From positions 83,307-147,306 of the forward strand of contig JAGYLP010000004.1 in NCBI GenBank assembly GCA_018401015.1: a stretch of DNA of 64,000 nt, in the 5' to 3' direction. Numbering within the stretch: position 1 is the stretch's first letter; each line of letters begins with the position of its first letter. This DNA comes from Bacteroidales bacterium. GTDB taxonomy: Bacteria; Bacteroidota; Bacteroidia; Bacteroidales; M50B96. Positions 11,311 to 20,491 of this stretch are shown piece after piece. A program made the translations under genes and the position numbers. The notes beneath the pieces are model-generated. The model saw only the letters and a list, made by a program, of their open reading frames with translations, made no database searches and was not told the origin of the DNA.

Positions 11311-11892
11311 ATGGATTATCAGTGGCTTTTTAACCGAATTCGGATTCTTCTCCTTGATTCCCCAAAAGGATGGGAAGAGATTCGATATTTGAATGAACCG
11401 GAACCGCTCTTGAGGAAAAAGTTGTTCTATCCACTCTTGATCTTATTGGGTATCAGTCATTTCATCGGCGTTTTATTTGCCGAAGGAGAAAGAAACTTCG
11501 CCAACTCACTATGGTTCACCTTGGCTCATCTTATATCAATCTTCTTTGGATACTATATCGCCTCCTGGAGCATTCGGCGGGTAGGGATTAGTTTCTCATC
11601 CCAGCTGGGCAAAGAGCGGGCATTCCAGTACATCGCCAACTCCATGTTGCCCTTCCTGCTGGTAACCATATTCATCAATTTCGCTCCATCGTCGCTCTAT
11701 TTCCTGAAGCTATTATATCTCTATTCATTTTACCTGCTCTGGCAAGGGAGTAAAATCTTGCTCGAAGTTCCGGAACAGAAACAACTTAGTTTTGTACTAA
11801 TAGCTTTGTTTATTCTCTACGCCGGTATTCGGATTAGTCTCTTTGTAAGCTTGGAACTTTTCCCTGTAAACACCATTAAACCCGGTTTATAA
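11311..11892 (+). CDS. multi-pass inner-membrane protein, Yip1-like
   Basis: This is a 193-aa protein with a short cytoplasmic N-terminus ([25 protein letters not shown]) and about five hydrophobic segments (roughly 35-53, 66-88, 107-128, 130-147, 157-180). The start, with a W-E-I motif followed by membrane helices, is typical of bacterial Yip1-domain proteins, but the match is weak. No function can be assigned. It ends 8 bp before smpB and probably shares its transcript. Confidence 0.65.
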
Positions 11893-11900
11893 TTCTTGCT

Positions 11901-12347
11901 ATGTCGAAAACACCTGTCATAAAAAATAAAAAAGCGGAATACTTATATCATTTGCTGGATGAGTTTACGGCAGGCATTGTTTTACAAGGAACTGAAATAA
12001 AAGCCATTCGTAAAGGGAAAGCCAGTTTAGTCGATACTTATTGTTATTTCAAGCAAGGTGAGTTGTGGATCAAAGGGATGCACATCAGCGAATATGAATT
12101 TGGTAATTTGAATAATCACGAACCAAAACGCGATCGAAAATTACTACTCAATCGGATTGAACTGAGAAAACTAGAGAAAAAGACCAAAGAAAAAGGATAT
12201 ACCATTGTGGCTACCTCCCTCTTCATTTCCGAAACCGGTTACGCAAAAGTATCCATTGCTCTGGCAAAAGGAAAAACTTTGGGCGACAAACGAGAAACCC
12301 TGAAAAATCGCGATGCCAAGCGCGATTTAGAGCGAAATTCCTACTAG
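11901..12347 (+). CDS. smpB: SsrA-binding protein
   Basis: SmpB delivers tmRNA to stalled ribosomes for trans-translation. The 148-aa protein shows the family signature: [31 protein letters not shown] (residues ~8-38), [24 protein letters not shown] in the middle, and a basic C-terminal tail [18 protein letters not shown], which enters the ribosomal decoding centre. The ssrA gene is not in this window. Confidence 0.95.
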
Positions 12348-12416
12348 TATCCAGCTTTTGACAGCACCAATAAATACATTACTTTTATCCACTGCATAAA
12401 TTTAAAAGATTGAATT

Positions 12417-13229
12417 ATGAACAAACCTATTTCTTCAACCATCATTATTGCCGGAATCGCTCTGGTATTATTAATTTTCTTCGGAAGCAGCATGTTTTTC
12501 AAACTTAACCCAGGTGAACGAGCTGTTATTTTTTATCAGTTTACTAAAGGTTTAGACAAGGAAGATGTGAAAAGACCGGGATTTCATGTGGTAGCACCCT
12601 GGAACGATTTCATTGTTTACAATGTAAAAGAGCAAACCCGGGAAGAAATGATGGACGTGCTCGATAAGAATGGATTGAGTGTGAACGTGGATATTTCCGT
12701 CCGTTTCAATCCTATTCATAATCGAATTGGAGAATTGCACGAAGTATTTGGAACCGATTACATTAGTCGATTAGTTGTTCCCGAGTTGCGTTCGGCAGTG
12801 CGAAAAGTTATGGGTCGCTATTCCGCCGAAGAAATTTATTCGACCCAACGGAAACAAGTGGAAGATGAAATTATTTTGGAAACAACCGAAGTATTTACCA
12901 AGAACAACATCGATATGCGCGCCATGTTGATTCGTTCTATCAACCTTCCGCCGAACATTAAAAACGCCATTGAAACAAAACTAACGCAAGAACAAGAAGC
13001 ACTGGCTTACGAATTCAAATTGACCCGAGAGCAAAGCGAAGCTAAAAGAAAAGAGATTGAAGCAGAAGGGATTGCGAACTACAATCGTATTATCAATCAG
13101 TCGCTTACTAAAAACATCCTGACTCAAAAAGGGATTGATGCCACACTTAAGCTAACCGAATCGAACAACGCCAAAGTAGTTGTGGTTGGTAACAGCGAAG
13201 GCCTACCGCTCATATTGGGCAACAATTAG
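12417..13229 (+). CDS. SPFH/prohibitin-family membrane protein
   Basis: This is a 270-aa protein with an N-terminal transmembrane helix (~8-28), an SPFH domain (~30-200: NPGERAVIFYQFTKG, then VDISVRFNPIHNRIGELHEVFG and VVPELRSAVRKVMG), and a C-terminal alpha-helical coiled coil rich in E, K and Q (~195-235). The family scaffolds membrane microdomains and in other bacteria binds FtsH. It is followed 37 bp later by a lipid acyltransferase. No hydrolase partner of the NfeD type is seen, so a prohibitin-like rather than flotillin-like role is more likely (inference). Confidence 0.88.
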   Translation: MNKPISSTIIIAGIALVLLIFFGSSMFFKLNPGERAVIFYQFTKGLDKEDVKRPGFHVVAPWNDFIVYNVKEQTREEMMDVLDKNGLSVNVDISVRFNPIHNRIGELHEVFGTDYISRLVVPELRSAVRKVMGRYSAEEIYSTQRKQVEDEIILETTEVFTKNNIDMRAMLIRSINLPPNIKNAIETKLTQEQEALAYEFKLTREQSEAKRKEIEAEGIANYNRIINQSLTKNILTQKGIDATLKLTESNNAKVVVVGNSEGLPLILGNN

Positions 13230-13266
13230 CATTGAATAGCCGCTCACGGCAATTGATCCCTATCCC

Positions 13267-15063
13267 ATGAACTTGTTTTCTCCGGAAGATCTCGCCCGAA
13301 CTTCTTACCTGCCCGGCCCGGCAGGTCGATTGGTTGCGCGCATCTTAATGCAGCTACTAGGCTTAAAGAAAGTAAACCGAACCTTTTCTAATTTGCGCGA
13401 CAAGGAAGGGTTGGATTTCATTACCGCTTTGCAGGATCAACTCGAAATTAAAATTGAGATTAGCGAAGAAGACAAAAAACGAATCCCTGCAGCAGGAGCA
13501 TTTATCGCCATTTCGAACCATCCTTTTGGCGGAATCGATAATCTATTGCTGATCAAAATAATCGGAGATATTCGCAAGGATTTCAAATTATTGGGCGATT
13601 CCCTTACGCGAAAAATTGAACCCATTGCCAACCATATCATCCGCGACAATCCGTTCGACTCCGACAGCCCGGGTTCCCGTTTTACCGGACTAAAATGCAG
13701 TTTGAAGCACTTGTCGGAAGGAAATGCGCTCGGCTTGTTTCCTGCACCCGAGGAAGCAGCCTACACCTCCGACAGTTTTCAAGTGCAAGACACACAATGG
13801 AATAACCAAATCATTCAGTTCATCAAAAAAGCAGAAGTGCCGGTTATTCCAGTGTATTTTGCCGGCAGTAACAGCTGGATTTTTCATCTATTGGGAAGAA
13901 TTCATCCCATTCTTAAGTCGGCGAAACTTCCCTCCGAATTGATTAACAAAAAGCGGAAAACAATCCGGATCCGAATAGGAAACCCTATCAGTGTAAAAGA
14001 ACAAAAAGAGTTGGGCGATTATAGTCGCCTGGGCAGGTATTTAAGAGCCAGAACCTATGCCCTTGGGACTCATTTGGAGGTTCGGAAGTTCTTTAAAAAT
14101 CCACTAAAGCGATTACAGCGCGTTGAGCCGATTATCGAAGCGATAAAGCCAAACTTAATACAGCAAGAAATCGATGCACTCGACCAACAATACCTGCTCT
14201 TTGAATCGAAAGCTTATCGCGTTATTTGTGCTCCGGCTGCTGCTATTCCCAATACACTCATCGAGATTGGTCGTTTGCGCGAAATCACTTTTCGCGAGGT
14301 TGGCGAAGGAACGAATCGATCTTTCGACCTCGATGAATTCGATTTATACTACCATCAACTCATTATTTGGGATAGCGAAGCTTCGAAAATTGTCGGAGCC
14401 TATCGGATTGGAAAAGGGAAAGATATTTTCGATTTATACGGTAATAAAGGCTTCTATTTACAATCCTTGTTTCGGATAAAAAAACCCTTCAATAAAATCT
14501 TGCAAGAATCCCTGGAGCTGGGGCGCTCATTCATTGTGAAAGAGTACCAGCGGAAGCCTCTTTCCCTGTTTCTCTTATGGAAAGGAATCCTGTATTTCCT
14601 TATCAAAAATCCAGAATACCGATACATGATTGGACCCGTGAGCATTAGCAACGATTATTCGAAATTTTCGAAAACCCTCATTGTCGAATACCTGAAGCAG
14701 AATCATTACCAAGCAAGCTTAGCAAAACATATTCAGGCCCGGAAAGAATTTGTCGTTCAGGACGATTTAAAAATCGACAAAGCCATCATCCTCGAAAATG
14801 CACAAACCAATATTAATCAATTGGATTCCATTATTAAAGATGTAGAGCAAAAGTTCAGCATGCCGGTATTACTGAAAAAATACCTGAGCATGGGAGGCCA
14901 GTTAATTGGGTTCAATATTGACCCTAAGTTCAATAATGCATTGGATGGATTCATCATCTTAGATATTTTCAATGTACCAACCACCATGATTGAATCCTTA
15001 TCGAAAGAGTTGAACGACCCACAAATGATGGAACGTTTTCTTAAATCGGATTCAAAACCCTAA
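13267..15063 (+). CDS. bifunctional lysophospholipid-type O-acyltransferase / GNAT N-acyltransferase (OlsF-like)
   Basis: This 598-aa protein fuses two domains. The N-terminal PlsC-like acyltransferase (~20-275) has the motif NHPFGGID (H85, D91) and LFPAPEEAAY. The C-terminal part (~300-500) looks like the OlsB-type N-acyltransferase: RVICAPAAAIPNTLIEIGRLREITFRE, a GAYRIGKG strand, ELGRSFIVKEYQRKPLSLFLLWKG, and YMIGPVSISNDYS. In OlsF the two halves form 3-hydroxyacyl ornithine and then O-acylate it; in Bacteroides, separate GlsB and GlsA enzymes do this with glycine. An aminolipid product is therefore likely, but the amino acid cannot be read from sequence. It lies 37 bp after the SPFH gene. 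Confidence 0.85.
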   Translation: MNLFSPEDLARTSYLPGPAGRLVARILMQLLGLKKVNRTFSNLRDKEGLDFITALQDQLEIKIEISEEDKKRIPAAGAFIAISNHPFGGIDNLLLIKIIGDIRKDFKLLGDSLTRKIEPIANHIIRDNPFDSDSPGSRFTGLKCSLKHLSEGNALGLFPAPEEAAYTSDSFQVQDTQWNNQIIQFIKKAEVPVIPVYFAGSNSWIFHLLGRIHPILKSAKLPSELINKKRKTIRIRIGNPISVKEQKELGDYSRLGRYLRARTYALGTHLEVRKFFKNPLKRLQRVEPIIEAIKPNLIQQEIDALDQQYLLFESKAYRVICAPAAAIPNTLIEIGRLREITFREVGEGTNRSFDLDEFDLYYHQLIIWDSEASKIVGAYRIGKGKDIFDLYGNKGFYLQSLFRIKKPFNKILQESLELGRSFIVKEYQRKPLSLFLLWKGILYFLIKNPEYRYMIGPVSISNDYSKFSKTLIVEYLKQNHYQASLAKHIQARKEFVVQDDLKIDKAIILENAQTNINQLDSIIKDVEQKFSMPVLLKKYLSMGGQLIGFNIDPKFNNALDGFIILDIFNVPTTMIESLSKELNDPQMMERFLKSDSKP

Positions 15064-15079
15064 ATATTAAGGAAGCAGC

Positions 15080-15775
15080 GTGGAATTACCTTATCTCCTT
15101 AAAGGCATCATCATTGGCCTGTTTGTCTCGGCACCCTTGGGTCCGATTGCCATTTTTGCCATTCAAAGGGTTCTCAGCAAAGGCCTCTGGATTGGTTTTT
15201 TTTCTGGTCTGGGTGCAGCCGTTGCCGATGGGGTGTTTGCGCTCATAGCCGCCTTCAGTGTGAGCTACGTCATCGATTTCATGAAAGAAAACCAACTTTA
15301 CCTTCGAATCATTGGGGGTGGCTTACTGGTTTTTATGGGGATAAAACTATTCTATTATCAAACCATCAAACACCGGGGAAAGAAAAGCTTATCGACCGGA
15401 AAGCTCATCCGCGATTTCATTTCCGTTTTTGCTCTTACCCTATCTAATCCGATTACCCTTTTTGTCTTTGGGGCTTTATTCGCCGGTATTTTACCCGCTA
15501 CTCAGAATGAAACCAATTCGGAAGAATTCGTTTTAGCCGGAGGAATTTTTCTGGGTGCGATTACCTGGTGGTTTGGCTTATCGTTAATTGTGAGCATTTT
15601 TCGCTCTCGAATTACCCTTCGAACTTTGTGGTGGATCAACAAAATAGCCGGAGTACTGATTGCCATCCTGGGAGCAATTATCCTGCTGGGAACCCTTCTG
15701 TTTAAGGACGATATACCCACTCCGGGTAAGATACCTCCGTTAGAAAAAGTCCTTGAGCAGGAGCCGAGGTTTTAG
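15080..15775 (+). CDS. LysE-family amino-acid exporter
   Basis: This is a 231-aa protein with about six membrane helices. The N-terminal LLKGIIIGLFVSAPLGPIAIFAIQRVLSKG carries the LysE/RhtB signature (SxPLGP) and FALTLSNPITLFVFGALFAG is the second conserved helix, so it probably exports amino acids or similar small compounds. The start is GTG at 15080, with AAGGAAG about 7 bp upstream. The stop of the acyltransferase is 17 bp before it. Its last 74 bp overlap truA on the other strand. Confidence 0.85.
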   Translation: MELPYLLKGIIIGLFVSAPLGPIAIFAIQRVLSKGLWIGFFSGLGAAVADGVFALIAAFSVSYVIDFMKENQLYLRIIGGGLLVFMGIKLFYYQTIKHRGKKSLSTGKLIRDFISVFALTLSNPITLFVFGALFAGILPATQNETNSEEFVLAGGIFLGAITWWFGLSLIVSIFRSRITLRTLWWINKIAGVLIAILGAIILLGTLLFKDDIPTPGKIPPLEKVLEQEPRF

Positions 15776-16469
15776 CTTTTCTTCGATCCCTTGCTTGAAT
15801 AATTTTCACAAAGTCGTCCACACTCAAATTCCCACGTCCTACTTCAACTAAGGTTCCAACGATGGCGCGCACCATGTTTCTGAGGAAGCGATTGGAACGA
15901 ATGCTGAAAACCAACTGCGATTCTTGCTCCTCAAAGTGCGCAGAACTTAGTTTACACCGATGATGCTTTACATCGCTGTTGCTGCGGGCAAAGCTGCTGA
16001 AGTCTTCATAAACTGGCAACAAATTGGCTGCTTCGTTCATCAAAACAACATCCAACGATTTGGACATACGCCACGCTAAATGGCCTGTAAAAGGATTTTT
16101 TTCGTATTCGATATGATATTCGTAAGCCCGTTCGAGAGCGCTAAATCGGGCATGAGCTTCGGGTGAAACGGCATAAATTTGCTTCAATGCAATCGACGAG
16201 GGCAAGAACTTATTCAGCTCATAAACCCATTGAGCCGGATCGGTGAGTGGAAAATCCAAATCGAAATGAGCTACATAAAAGGAGGCATGCACTCCGGCAT
16301 CGGTGCGCCCGCATCCTACTAACTCAACCTTTCGTTGCATTTTCACCCCAAAATGATGCTCCATTTGTTCCTGGACCGACAATCCATTCGGCTGAGTTTG
16401 CCACCCAACATAGCTGGAGCCATTGAACGAAAACTCAACAAAATACCTGTATTTCAACTCGTTAACCAC
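15702..16469 (-). CDS. truA: tRNA pseudouridine(38-40) synthase
   Basis: TruA converts U38-U40 of many tRNA anticodon arms to pseudouridine. The 255-aa protein shows the start YFVEFSFNGSSYVGWQTQPNGLSVQ, the catalytic GCGRTDAGVHA (the Asp is the nucleophile), FSALERAYEYHIEY, and FLRNMVRAIVGTLVEVGRGNLS. The C-terminus LFLTEVSYPEWVY is normal for the family, so the end overlapping the exporter gene (15702-15775) is real coding sequence. It is divergent from the moxR-bat operon. Confidence 0.93.
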   Translation of the reverse strand: MVNELKYRYFVEFSFNGSSYVGWQTQPNGLSVQEQMEHHFGVKMQRKVELVGCGRTDAGVHASFYVAHFDLDFPLTDPAQWVYELNKFLPSSIALKQIYAVSPEAHARFSALERAYEYHIEYEKNPFTGHLAWRMSKSLDVVLMNEAANLLPVYEDFSSFARSNSDVKHHRCKLSSAHFEEQESQLVFSIRSNRFLRNMVRAIVGTLVEVGRGNLSVDDFVKIIQARDRRKAKTSAPAQGLFLTEVSYPEWVYRP

Positions 16470-16596: not shown

Positions 16597-17592
16597 ATGA
16601 GTTATAATCCGGATATCCGTATTCTGAATGAGCGAATCCAGCAGGAAAGTTTGTTCATCGATCAGATTCAACAAGAAATGAATAAAGTAATTGTGGGTCA
16701 AAAACATCTCGTAGAAAGTCTGATGCTTGGTTTATTGACCAACGGACACATTTTACTCGAAGGAGTTCCCGGACTTGCCAAAACACTCGCAATCAATACG
16801 CTTGCTCAAACAGTCGATGCTAAATTTCACCGAATTCAGTTTACCCCCGACCTGCTGCCTGCCGACCTCTTAGGTACGATGATTTACAGTCAGAAAAAAG
16901 AAGAGTTCATTGTAAAAAAAGGACCTATTTTCTCCAACTTCATCCTGGCCGACGAGATTAACCGAGCACCGGCCAAGGTTCAATCGGCTCTTCTCGAAGC
17001 TATGCAAGAGAAGCAAGTGACCATCGGGCAAGAGACATACCGCCTGGAGGAACCCTTTCTGGTTATGGCAACCCAAAACCCAATAGAACAAGAAGGTACT
17101 TATCCGCTGCCAGAAGCCCAAGTGGATCGGTTCATGCTCAAAGTGGTTATCAGTTATCCCACCAAAGAGGAAGAAAAATCGATCATTCGTCAAAATCTGG
17201 CCATGGCTTTCCCGAAAGCACAAACCATCCTGAAACCCGCCGATATCCTCAATGCCCGACAAGTAGTGAAAGAGGTTTATATGGACGAGAAAATTGAGAA
17301 TTACATTGTCGATATTGTATTTGCCACACGCGAACCCGCCAATTACCGACTGTCGAAATATGCACCCATGATTTCTTATGGAGGATCGCCTCGTGCCAGC
17401 ATCAGTCTCGCAACAGCGGCCAAAGCGTATGCATTTATCAAGCACAGGGGCTATGTTATTCCGGAAGATGTGCGTGCTGTAAGCCACGATGTACTTCGCC
17501 ACCGTATTGGCCTTACCTACGAAGCGGAAGCAGAGAACATAACTACGACAGAAATCATTAATCAGATTCTCAATACCGTAGAAGTACCTTAA
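16597..17592 (+). CDS. MoxR-type AAA+ ATPase, first gene of the bat operon
   Basis: This is a 331-aa MoxR-family ATPase. Walker A is LLEGVPGLAKTLAIN (~54-68), Walker B FILADEINRAPAKVQSALLEAMQE, sensor 1 MATQNPIEQEGTYPLPEAQ, with an arginine-rich lid at the C-terminus. MoxR proteins are thought to act as chaperones that remodel or load metal into partner VWA-domain proteins. The following genes encode a DUF58 protein and two VWA proteins, which fits this. It starts 51 bp before the DUF58 gene and probably opens an eight-gene transcript to 25045. Confidence 0.92.
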   Translation: MSYNPDIRILNERIQQESLFIDQIQQEMNKVIVGQKHLVESLMLGLLTNGHILLEGVPGLAKTLAINTLAQTVDAKFHRIQFTPDLLPADLLGTMIYSQKKEEFIVKKGPIFSNFILADEINRAPAKVQSALLEAMQEKQVTIGQETYRLEEPFLVMATQNPIEQEGTYPLPEAQVDRFMLKVVISYPTKEEEKSIIRQNLAMAFPKAQTILKPADILNARQVVKEVYMDEKIENYIVDIVFATREPANYRLSKYAPMISYGGSPRASISLATAAKAYAFIKHRGYVIPEDVRAVSHDVLRHRIGLTYEAEAENITTTEIINQILNTVEVP

Positions 17593-17643
17593 TCCGTACC
17601 CGACCTCTCCTTCAATTAACTTCAACGGAAACGATACCAAACC

Positions 17644-18516
17644 ATGGAAACCAACGAACTCTTAAAAAAAGTCCGAAAAATTGAGATTAAAACACGACGG
17701 CTTTCCCGGAACCTATTCGCCGGGGAATACCACAGTGCTTTTAAAGGGAAAGGAATGACTTTTTCAGAAGTTCGAGAGTATCAATATGGCGACAGTATCC
17801 GGAACATCGATTGGAATGTTACCGCTCGGTTCAATCATCCTTTTATAAAAGTATTCGAAGAAGAAAGGGAGCTCACCGTCATCTTGATGATTGATGTTTC
17901 GAACTCAAAAATTTTTGGCACACGGATACAAAGTAAAGACGAGCTTATTACCGAACTAGCGGCTGTCCTCTCCTTCTCTGCCATTCAGAATAACGATAAA
18001 ATCGGAGTCATTTTCTTCAGCGATCAAGTGGAAAAATTCATCCCTCCGAAAAAAGGTCGCTCACACATCCTTCGAATTATCCGCGAGCTCATTGAGTTTA
18101 AACCTGAGAATAAGCGAACCAATATGAGCGAGGCTCTCCGGTTTCTTAGCAATGCCATTCGAAAAAAGTGCACCACTTTCATCATTAGCGATTTTATCGA
18201 TAGTGGCTACGATGAAGCACTTCAGATAGCCGCTCGAAAACACGACGTGATTGCCTTGAAAGTGTATGACCAAAGAGAAAGAGAGTTACCCAATGTTGGA
18301 CTGATTAAACTCAAGGATGCTGAAACCGGTCAGTTTCAATGGGTCGATACCTCCAGCAAGCGAATTCGCCAAGCGTATCAGCAATGGTGGAACCAACAAC
18401 AACAGCGCGAAAAAGAACTCTTTAATAAAGCCGGAATCGATTCCACTTCGCTGGAAACAGGAAAAGATTACGTATTGAGTATGATGCAGTTATTCAAAAA
18501 ACGCGACACCCGATAA
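17644..18516 (+). CDS. DUF58-domain protein with VWA-like fold
   Basis: This is a 290-aa cytoplasmic protein. The DUF58 signature YQYGDSIRNIDWNVTARFNHPFIKVFEEERE lies at ~47-78 and is followed by a MIDAS-like metal site DVSNS (IDVSNSKIF) of a VWA-type fold. It regularly follows moxR in this type of operon and probably binds the MoxR ATPase (family knowledge). It is 3 bp from the next gene. Confidence 0.9.
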   Translation: METNELLKKVRKIEIKTRRLSRNLFAGEYHSAFKGKGMTFSEVREYQYGDSIRNIDWNVTARFNHPFIKVFEEERELTVILMIDVSNSKIFGTRIQSKDELITELAAVLSFSAIQNNDKIGVIFFSDQVEKFIPPKKGRSHILRIIRELIEFKPENKRTNMSEALRFLSNAIRKKCTTFIISDFIDSGYDEALQIAARKHDVIALKVYDQRERELPNVGLIKLKDAETGQFQWVDTSSKRIRQAYQQWWNQQQQREKELFNKAGIDSTSLETGKDYVLSMMQLFKKRDTR

Positions 18517-18519
18517 GCT

Positions 18520-19497
18520 ATGACCATCAAAACCGCCATCGGATTCATCCTGCTATTCCTTTCGTCACTCGCGATGCAAAGTCAGTCGATTGTGGTGAAA
18601 GCCGATTTAGATACCAATCAAATCTTAATAGGCGACCAAATCGTCTATCGGCTCGAAGCTGAGGTTCATAAGGACTTTCAGCTCCAATTTCCCTCTTTTG
18701 CCGATACAATCATGAAAGGAATCGAAATTCTGGAGCAAAGCCCGATTGATACTACTTTCCTAAGCGCCGACCTCCTATCTTTAACCCAGACCTTATTGCT
18801 TACCTCCTTCGATTCGGGCATTTACATTCTGCCCGGACAAGCCTTTGTATTCACTTCGTCCAACTTTTCCGACACCCTACTTACCGAGCCAAACTTCCTG
18901 GCAGTCACAACTTTTCAAATTGATTCTATTCAGGGCATAATGGATATCAAGCCGCCTATCGACACCCCTTTTGTGCTGCAGGAAGCACTTCCGGCAACCG
19001 GAATTGGCCTATTGATAGCAGCTCTCCTTCTGCTTTCATATTGGGGTTGGAAGAAGCTGCAACAAAGACCGAAGCCTGCACAAGAAGCAAAACCTCAACC
19101 CAAACGACCGGCCCATCGAATTGCCCTCGAAGCACTCGACCAATTAGAACAAAAAAAGCTTTGGCAACAAAGTGAGTTCAAAGCATTCTACTCAGAATTA
19201 AGCTTCATCTTTCGACAGTATCTCGAAAACCGTTTCGATACCGAAGCCTTGGAGCAAACTACGCCTGAGATTGTTGATTGGACGAGTCGGCGAACCGAAA
19301 TATCATCGAGCCTTCATCAAGAGCTACGGGAAATTCTGGAGCTATCGGATCTTGTGAAGTTTGCCAAACTAGAGCCATTAGCTACAGAAAATGAAAACGT
19401 ACTCAAACGCGCTTACCATTGGGTGCATCAAACGAAACTGAGCGAAAATTTGCGCGAACCCGAATTGTTGAATACTAAATCGGAATCACATGCTTAA
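18520..19497 (+). CDS. exported, single-pass membrane protein of the bat operon
   Basis: This is a 325-aa protein with a signal peptide (~1-21, ending MQSQS), a beta-rich periplasmic region (~22-160) resembling a short BatD-like domain (LIGDQIVYRLEAEVHKDFQLQFPSF), a transmembrane helix (~160-178), then a cytoplasmic part with basic/proline linker and helices (LEQKKLWQQSEFKAFYSELSFIFRQYLENRF). The last part resembles the C-terminal tail of BatD at 22418. It overlaps batA by 8 bp. It has no gene name; a stator-like or accessory role in the complex is inference. Confidence 0.8.
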   Translation: MTIKTAIGFILLFLSSLAMQSQSIVVKADLDTNQILIGDQIVYRLEAEVHKDFQLQFPSFADTIMKGIEILEQSPIDTTFLSADLLSLTQTLLLTSFDSGIYILPGQAFVFTSSNFSDTLLTEPNFLAVTTFQIDSIQGIMDIKPPIDTPFVLQEALPATGIGLLIAALLLLSYWGWKKLQQRPKPAQEAKPQPKRPAHRIALEALDQLEQKKLWQQSEFKAFYSELSFIFRQYLENRFDTEALEQTTPEIVDWTSRRTEISSSLHQELREILELSDLVKFAKLEPLATENENVLKRAYHWVHQTKLSENLREPELLNTKSESHA

Positions 19498-20491
19498 TGC
19501 TGCTGTTCAATTTGCGCAACCGGAGTTTTTCTACCTGTTAATCGTGCCAGCAGGAATGCTGGTCTATTATTTTCTTCGGCGGAATCATATCCATGCCGAT
19601 CTTACCGGATCGACCATCAGCATGTTTAAAGGAATCAAACCCGGTTGGAGAACTTACGGACGACACCTTCCATACATTTTCAGAGCCATCGCCCTTTCAC
19701 TCATGATTATTGCCTTGGCTCGTCCTCAATCTTCTCTAAATTGGGAAAATGTTAGCACCGAAGGAATCGACATTGCGCTCTCGCTCGACATTAGCAGTTC
19801 AATGCTGGCCGAAGATTTTCAACCGAATCGACTTGAGGCAGCCAAAGATGTTGCTATTCAGTTCATTAATAATCGACCCAACGATCGAATTGGATTGGTT
19901 GTTTATAGTAAAGAATCCTTCACCCAATGCCCGCTAACCACCGATCATGCGGTGCTGATTAATCTCTTTCAGGATGTAAAACAAGGAATGATCGAAGATG
20001 GAACAGCCATTGGCTATGGAATCGCAACGGCAGCCTCTCGGCTGAAAGAGAGCGATGCCAAATCGAAAGTGATTATTCTCCTTACCGACGGAGAAAACAA
20101 TGCCGGCGACATTTCGCCAGCTACCGCAGCCGAAATTGCGCAGGCTCTTGGCATTCGAATATACACCATTGGGGTTGGAACTATCGGGAAAGCTCCTTAC
20201 CCTGGGACCGACTTCTTTGGTCGAAAAATTTACCACGAGGTAGAGGTTAAAATTGATGAAGAAACCTTGCAACGAATTGCCGATATAACCGGAGGTCGAT
20301 ACTTCCGGGCCATCAATAAGAATAGTTTAAAACAAATTTACGAGGAGATCGACCAGCTGGAAAAATCGAAAATCGAAGTAAAAGAGTATTCACGCAAAAA
20401 AGAAGAATACTTTCCTTTTGCTCTGGGAGCCAGCCTGTTCATTTTACTCGAGTTTCTCCTCCGTTTATTCGTTTTTCGAAAAATACCTTAA
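19490..20491 (+). CDS. batA: BatA: membrane-anchored von Willebrand A-domain protein
   Basis: This is a 333-aa protein with N-terminal hydrophobic helices (~12-28 and ~62-78), a VWA domain (~88-290) with an intact MIDAS (DISSS at ~95, then a Thr and LTDGEN), and a C-terminal membrane helix (~308-328). The Bat proteins were described in Bacteroides fragilis as aerotolerance factors; their molecular action is still unclear. Translation is coupled to the preceding gene by an 8-bp overlap, and batB follows after 2 bp. Confidence 0.9.
   Translation: MLNAAVQFAQPEFFYLLIVPAGMLVYYFLRRNHIHADLTGSTISMFKGIKPGWRTYGRHLPYIFRAIALSLMIIALARPQSSLNWENVSTEGIDIALSLDISSSMLAEDFQPNRLEAAKDVAIQFINNRPNDRIGLVVYSKESFTQCPLTTDHAVLINLFQDVKQGMIEDGTAIGYGIATAASRLKESDAKSKVIILLTDGENNAGDISPATAAEIAQALGIRIYTIGVGTIGKAPYPGTDFFGRKIYHEVEVKIDEETLQRIADITGGRYFRAINKNSLKQIYEEIDQLEKSKIEVKEYSRKKEEYFPFALGASLFILLEFLLRLFVFRKIP

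Follow-up and report, generated by a model that had tools for sequence, protein, structure and literature searches.

Does a single protein of a Bacteroidales bacterium carry both of the acyltransferases needed to build an aminolipid and, if so, which lipid would it make? The question is raised by a forward-strand gene at 13267–15063 of the window (the whole 64,000-nucleotide stretch of DNA that was analysed), an open reading frame of 598 amino acids running from an ATG at 13267 to a stop codon at 15063, for which a first-pass annotation had proposed an O-acyltransferase and an N-acyltransferase fused in that order, as in OlsF. Both domains were recovered in one chain and in the proposed order: Pfam places an N-terminal O-acyltransferase domain, Acyltransf_2 (PF19576), at residues 13–270 (13303–14076, forward strand; E 2e-16) and Acetyltransf_5 (PF13444) at residues 337–438 (E 5e-23), each above its curated cut-off, the classical PlsC family PF01553 remains under its own (17.5 vs 23 bits), and the NCBIfam OlsF model NF052615 extends across residues 21–570 with 386.3 bits. 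These Pfam domains, together with 63 relatives in genome contigs, most of which cover nearly the whole length, rule out a chance open reading frame; a phage-borne gene was also ruled out, since no relative was found in viral contigs.

Both folds are also predicted. From a 44-row alignment, AlphaFold2 models two well-folded parts (mean pLDDT 85.9 for the whole model) joined by a disordered linker at residues 272–281 (14080–14109, forward strand; pLDDT <50), and in VIA-align comparisons model residues 24–272 of the N half resemble the PlsC of T. maritima (Z 16.0, rmsd 4.5 over 207 residues), while the C half resembles acylhomoserine-lactone (AHL) synthases (Z 12–14.0, rmsd 3.1 over 180 residues) and the N-acyl amino acid synthase FeeM (Z 12.9, rmsd 3.0 over 171 residues). 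By sequence alone, a search of solved structures returned one match of no use, with E 0.37. The GNAT domain that had been expected at about residues 300–500 does have the GNAT fold in the model, so that the lack of such a fold, named beforehand as a refuting outcome, did not arise. As the C part aligns over about 315–586, the domain, placed at residues 316–586 (14212–15024, forward strand), is somewhat longer and later than proposed. Sequence and model together show both domains to be present and folded, and the activity of each is a prediction.

With good confidence, the protein can be regarded as the Bacteroidota form of OlsF, a predicted two-domain aminolipid synthase; homology, modelled fold and lineage all speak for the OlsF-type, one-protein synthesis first put forward. 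Bacteroidota OlsF proteins are Fjoh_0833 of Flavobacterium johnsoniae and PEDSA_2277 of Pseudopedobacter saltans (names in PMC11631085), and passages in two further papers place it in the CFB group (PMC12186959; PMC12493201). The kind of enzyme is already known from Bacteroidota and one-protein synthesis of ornithine or lysine lipids there is published, which makes the finding ordinary in kind and the fusion less surprising than the first-pass annotation held. The window's protein shares with these enzymes the two domains, their order, a range of NF052615 scores that is likewise sub-threshold, and a place in one tree with Flavobacteriaceae; what sets it apart is a motif III that reads FPAPEEA and a LysE-type gene alongside.

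The score deserves attention, because 386.3 bits is under the 620-bit equivalog cut-off of NF052615 and the protein, like those of its whole sampled order, is not filed under that equivalog. All five named Bacteroidota homologues that were scanned score 394–433 bits, all below 620 (among them Galbibacter marinus of the Flavobacteriaceae with 409 bits, Labilibaculum and Marinifilum), and the cut-off is reached in 0 of the 119 genomes sampled from the order and in 11 of the 296 sampled from the phylum. The cut-off is narrow and, as it omits every sampled Bacteroidales fused homologue (37 genes in 36 of the 119 genomes), these proteins will probably go without the name OlsF in automatic annotation. 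The protein has full-length homology to the model and the bifunctional layout in common with the OlsF of Serratia proteamaculans (NF052615), but in the phylogeny of the 113 fused proteins the sequences over the cut-off form one separate clade with 100% support, and the window's protein groups with other Bacteroidota sequences, including Flavobacteriaceae homologues (Galbibacter marinus, ~41% identical to it, standing in for F. johnsoniae OlsF); this tree was built quickly, with poor support at 34 of its 110 inner branches and long branches for three rows.

What, then, would the enzyme make? The product would be an ornithine or lysine lipid, a phosphorus-free membrane lipid with ornithine as the most likely head group and lysine as a further possibility, by analogy with the F. 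johnsoniae enzyme and the lipids of Labilibaculum. E. coli expressing F. johnsoniae OlsF is reported to form lipids of both ornithine and lysine (a passage of PMC4484230, citing Vences-Guzman et al.), and the relevant passages on Labilibaculum euxinus give 25–27% ornithine lipids (peak area) and 8–10% glycine lipids, along with homologues of both OlsF and GlsAB (PMC12927429); a homologue from a Labilibaculum MAG (L007) is 57% identical to the fused protein and has a LysE-type gene adjoining it. I infer acyl carrier protein as the acyl donor, as I do the order of the steps, the head group and the activity itself, and in the second step the PlsC-fold domain would acylate the 3-hydroxyl with His85 as the base. 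The genome's two genes of the OTCase superfamily suggest ornithine or acylated ornithine as an intermediate there.

Other products have to be weighed against this one. Bacteroidales glycine-lipid enzymes possess both domain types, the Bacteroides GlsA and GlsB (NF053697, NF053696) comprising a PF19576-type O-acyltransferase and a GNAT N-acyltransferase, and the protein might be read as a fusion of the two that makes glycine lipid, the more so as its halves do match both profiles (98.3 bits for GlsA, 125.5 bits for GlsB). However, these scores are far under the respective cut-offs of 260 and 300, and the 2.88 Mb assembly (84 contigs) encodes a separate GlsA–GlsB pair on contig 6 (330.8 and 466.8 bits, both over the curated cut-offs), whose GlsA is the only stand-alone one in the genome, as well as a second GlsB on contig 1 (L002, 420.2 bits, over the cut-off), an orphan with no GlsA beside it; the pair and the second GlsB make a glycine-lipid role of the fused protein unlikely. 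GlsB over the cut-off is in fact present in 33 of the 36 genomes with a fused gene, this one included, and in a GNAT-domain tree 31 of 32 GlsB rows fall together in a clade with 100% support and no fused protein inside, the remaining row (L124, on a branch of 5.4) having probably been cut out in the wrong frame. Given the genome's own GlsAB and a GNAT tree that sets the fused protein apart, I reject a glycine-lipid synthase as very improbable, and the separate pair is the most likely source of this organism's glycine lipids. It is true, as the first-pass annotation noted, that the glycine-lipid enzymes of Bacteroides are separate proteins, but the contrast it drew with the fused gene is moot when the same genome contains GlsA–GlsB and an extra GlsB. 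The orphan GlsB adjoins a polyprenyl-synthetase-like gene. A related acyltransferase with a different head group or acceptor, such as some other amino acid or the dipeptide precursor of a flavolipin-type lipid, would be compatible with the fact that head-group choice is unreadable from sequence and with the flavolipins also noted for Labilibaculum in part of PMC12927429; the nearest tested relative is nevertheless the F. johnsoniae OlsF with its ornithine and lysine lipids, as told in that passage of PMC4484230, and I regard such a departure as distinctly unlikely.

A different doubt attaches to the O-acyltransferase half of the proposed OlsF. Its motif I, NHPFGGID (residues 84–91; 13516–13539, forward strand), retains His85 and Asp91 in HX5D spacing, the putative catalytic pair of the domain by analogy with PlsC-type families, the consensus of its relatives being NHPxGGxD/E with Glu at the Asp91 position in 27 of 113. 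Motif III (residues 158–164; 13738–13758, forward strand) reads FPAGEVS in 65 of the 113 relatives and FPAPEEA in no other row among them, residue 161 being Pro in this protein and Gly in 98 of the 113, and this change lowers confidence in the O-acylation step. Counting against the proposed OlsF as well is the score of the N domain with the GlsA profile, 100 bits, which ranks 31st among the 37 fused proteins sampled. In addition, the motif I His position is occupied by another residue in 11 of 113 relatives (F in 5, Q in 3, Y in 2 and R in 1; L019, L029, L033, L042, L056, L059, L082, L087, L159, L166 and L167), the outcome of at least 5–6 separate changes on the tree; these relatives keep the GNAT core, and eight of the eleven belong to the fused protein's own 13-row clade (97% support), so that O-acylation by the N domain appears dispensable nearby. 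The GNAT core is strongly kept across all 113 relatives and the N half is more variable, with a mean pairwise identity of 0.436 vs 0.539 for the C domain (5151 pairs, 102 rows). Finally, at least two stand-alone GlsA-like genes are found in 5 of 6 His-less genomes vs 7 of 30 genomes whose fused gene keeps the His (Fisher p 0.010, uncorrected for kinship and counting matches >200 bits, which takes in three copies below the 260-bit cut-off and leaves out two weak copies of 121–123 bits in G006 and G101, both His-bearing genomes), and the NHP motif is present in 19 of the 20 extra stand-alone copies (L218–L237, L219 being the one without) in the part of their sequences viewed. These findings suggest that a separate GlsA-like enzyme can take over O-acylation from the fused one. 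Comparing dN/dS between the two halves supports such a handover neither way: most pairs are saturated at synonymous sites, which makes the comparison uninformative, and the N/C ratio of dN runs from 0.5 to 8.5, with no clear difference in the two pairs made up of His-less members only (1.15 and 1.71).

The protein could accordingly be seen as a working N-acyltransferase whose O-acyl half is weak or dead, so that it makes mainly a one-chain (lyso) lipid or an N-acyl amino acid, leaving any second chain to another enzyme, for instance the genome's GlsA. The motif III altered in this copy only, the His losses concentrated in its clade, the less conserved N domain and the commoner additional GlsA-like genes of His-less genomes all lean this way, but this copy has both His85 and Asp91, its O-acyl domain is modelled with confidence, no frame damage is seen, and the single stand-alone GlsA is paired with GlsB. 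I consider this reading unlikely and retain the two-domain OlsF.

Does the neighbourhood of the gene add anything to its function? As had been noted, the fused gene follows an SPFH membrane-domain gene (SPFH/Band_7, PF01145; 12417–13229, forward strand, 37 bp upstream), but an SPFH homologue is found in just one of 63 related loci (L005) and there more than 1 kb from the fused gene, which rules it out as a functional partner. On the other side, 16 bp downstream, lies the gene for a LysE-type translocator of 231 amino acids (PF01810; 15080–15775, forward strand), the best NCBIfam match of which is a homoserine/threonine efflux subfamily, far under its cut-off. The two genes are probably co-transcribed; promoter and terminator scans over 11800–16000 gave no excess over shuffles (7 vs 8.0 and 5 vs 4.8), so the case for co-transcription with the SPFH and LysE-type genes is made from strand and gaps. 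Farther out in the window, 11901–12347 is presumably smpB, named from its sequence, with a Yip1-domain membrane protein (PF04893; 11311–11892) encoded upstream of it, and at 16597–20491 MoxR-like ATPase, DUF58-like and von Willebrand-type genes, named from their open reading frames, stand in a row that I take to be like the Bacteroides aerotolerance (Bat) operon.

The LysE-type gene, unlike the SPFH gene, recurs. A homologue is present in 17 of 63 related loci (2.1 kb away in L019 and adjoining in the others), and in the order sample, where every genome represents a different genus, 15 of 36 genomes place it no more than 400 bp from the fused gene. The two genes share a strand in all 15, and the LysE-type gene is the downstream one in 11 and the upstream one in 4; none of the 111 GlsB genes of that sample has it nearby. 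Of the 113 fused genes in the non-redundant set, 24 have it as their direct neighbour, with 10 changes on the tree, and strong LysE-type matches are found in 26 of 36 genomes with a fused gene vs 35 of 83 without (Fisher p 0.003, at a score threshold that was not preset). Common neighbours can of course be inherited without a functional link, as is evident from a control gene that I take, from its sequence, to be a YgiQ-like radical SAM gene and that is found in 29 of 113 loci. This gene lies upstream in every case, on the opposite strand and with 5 changes on the tree, whereas the LysE-type gene, with its 10 changes, is found on either side and always on the same strand. The YgiQ-like neighbour occurs mostly in Prolixibacteraceae and Marinifilaceae (for example L014, L018, L031 and L052). 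Twenty non-adjacent LysE loci, when examined, had no obvious common partner, and for an independent-pairs test of LysE adjacency vs His loss the informative pairs were too few.

Judged from gene order, the LysE link is a probable functional association. In the plainest reading the LysE-type protein may act as an outlet and so adjust how much of the head-group amino acid is available to the enzyme; in the boldest it would be a lipid carrier. The LysE superfamily is described, in a passage of PMC4608589, as including lysine and arginine exporters and a GAP family reported to move peptidoglycolipids. No paper among the search results that were read names a membrane partner of an OlsF-type enzyme or reports the LysE link. 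The recurring LysE-type gene is a directly testable candidate for such a membrane partner, which would be new.

These observations can also be joined into a bolder proposal, which I offer as speculative and rather improbable: that in a Bacteroidales branch OlsF is becoming an N-acyl amino acid (lyso-aminolipid) synthase, its O-acyl half eroding piecemeal as stand-alone GlsA-like enzymes take over and a LysE-superfamily partner handles the basic head group or the lipid product. The window's copy would then be at an early stage, with His85 and Asp91 kept and motif III changed. Aminolipids constitute a large share of some Bacteroidota membranes, that of L. euxinus being an example in the passages of PMC12927429, and the repeated loss of the His among relatives of the fused protein means that OlsF homology alone is no guarantee of a two-chain product, a point that matters for genome-based predictions of aminolipids.
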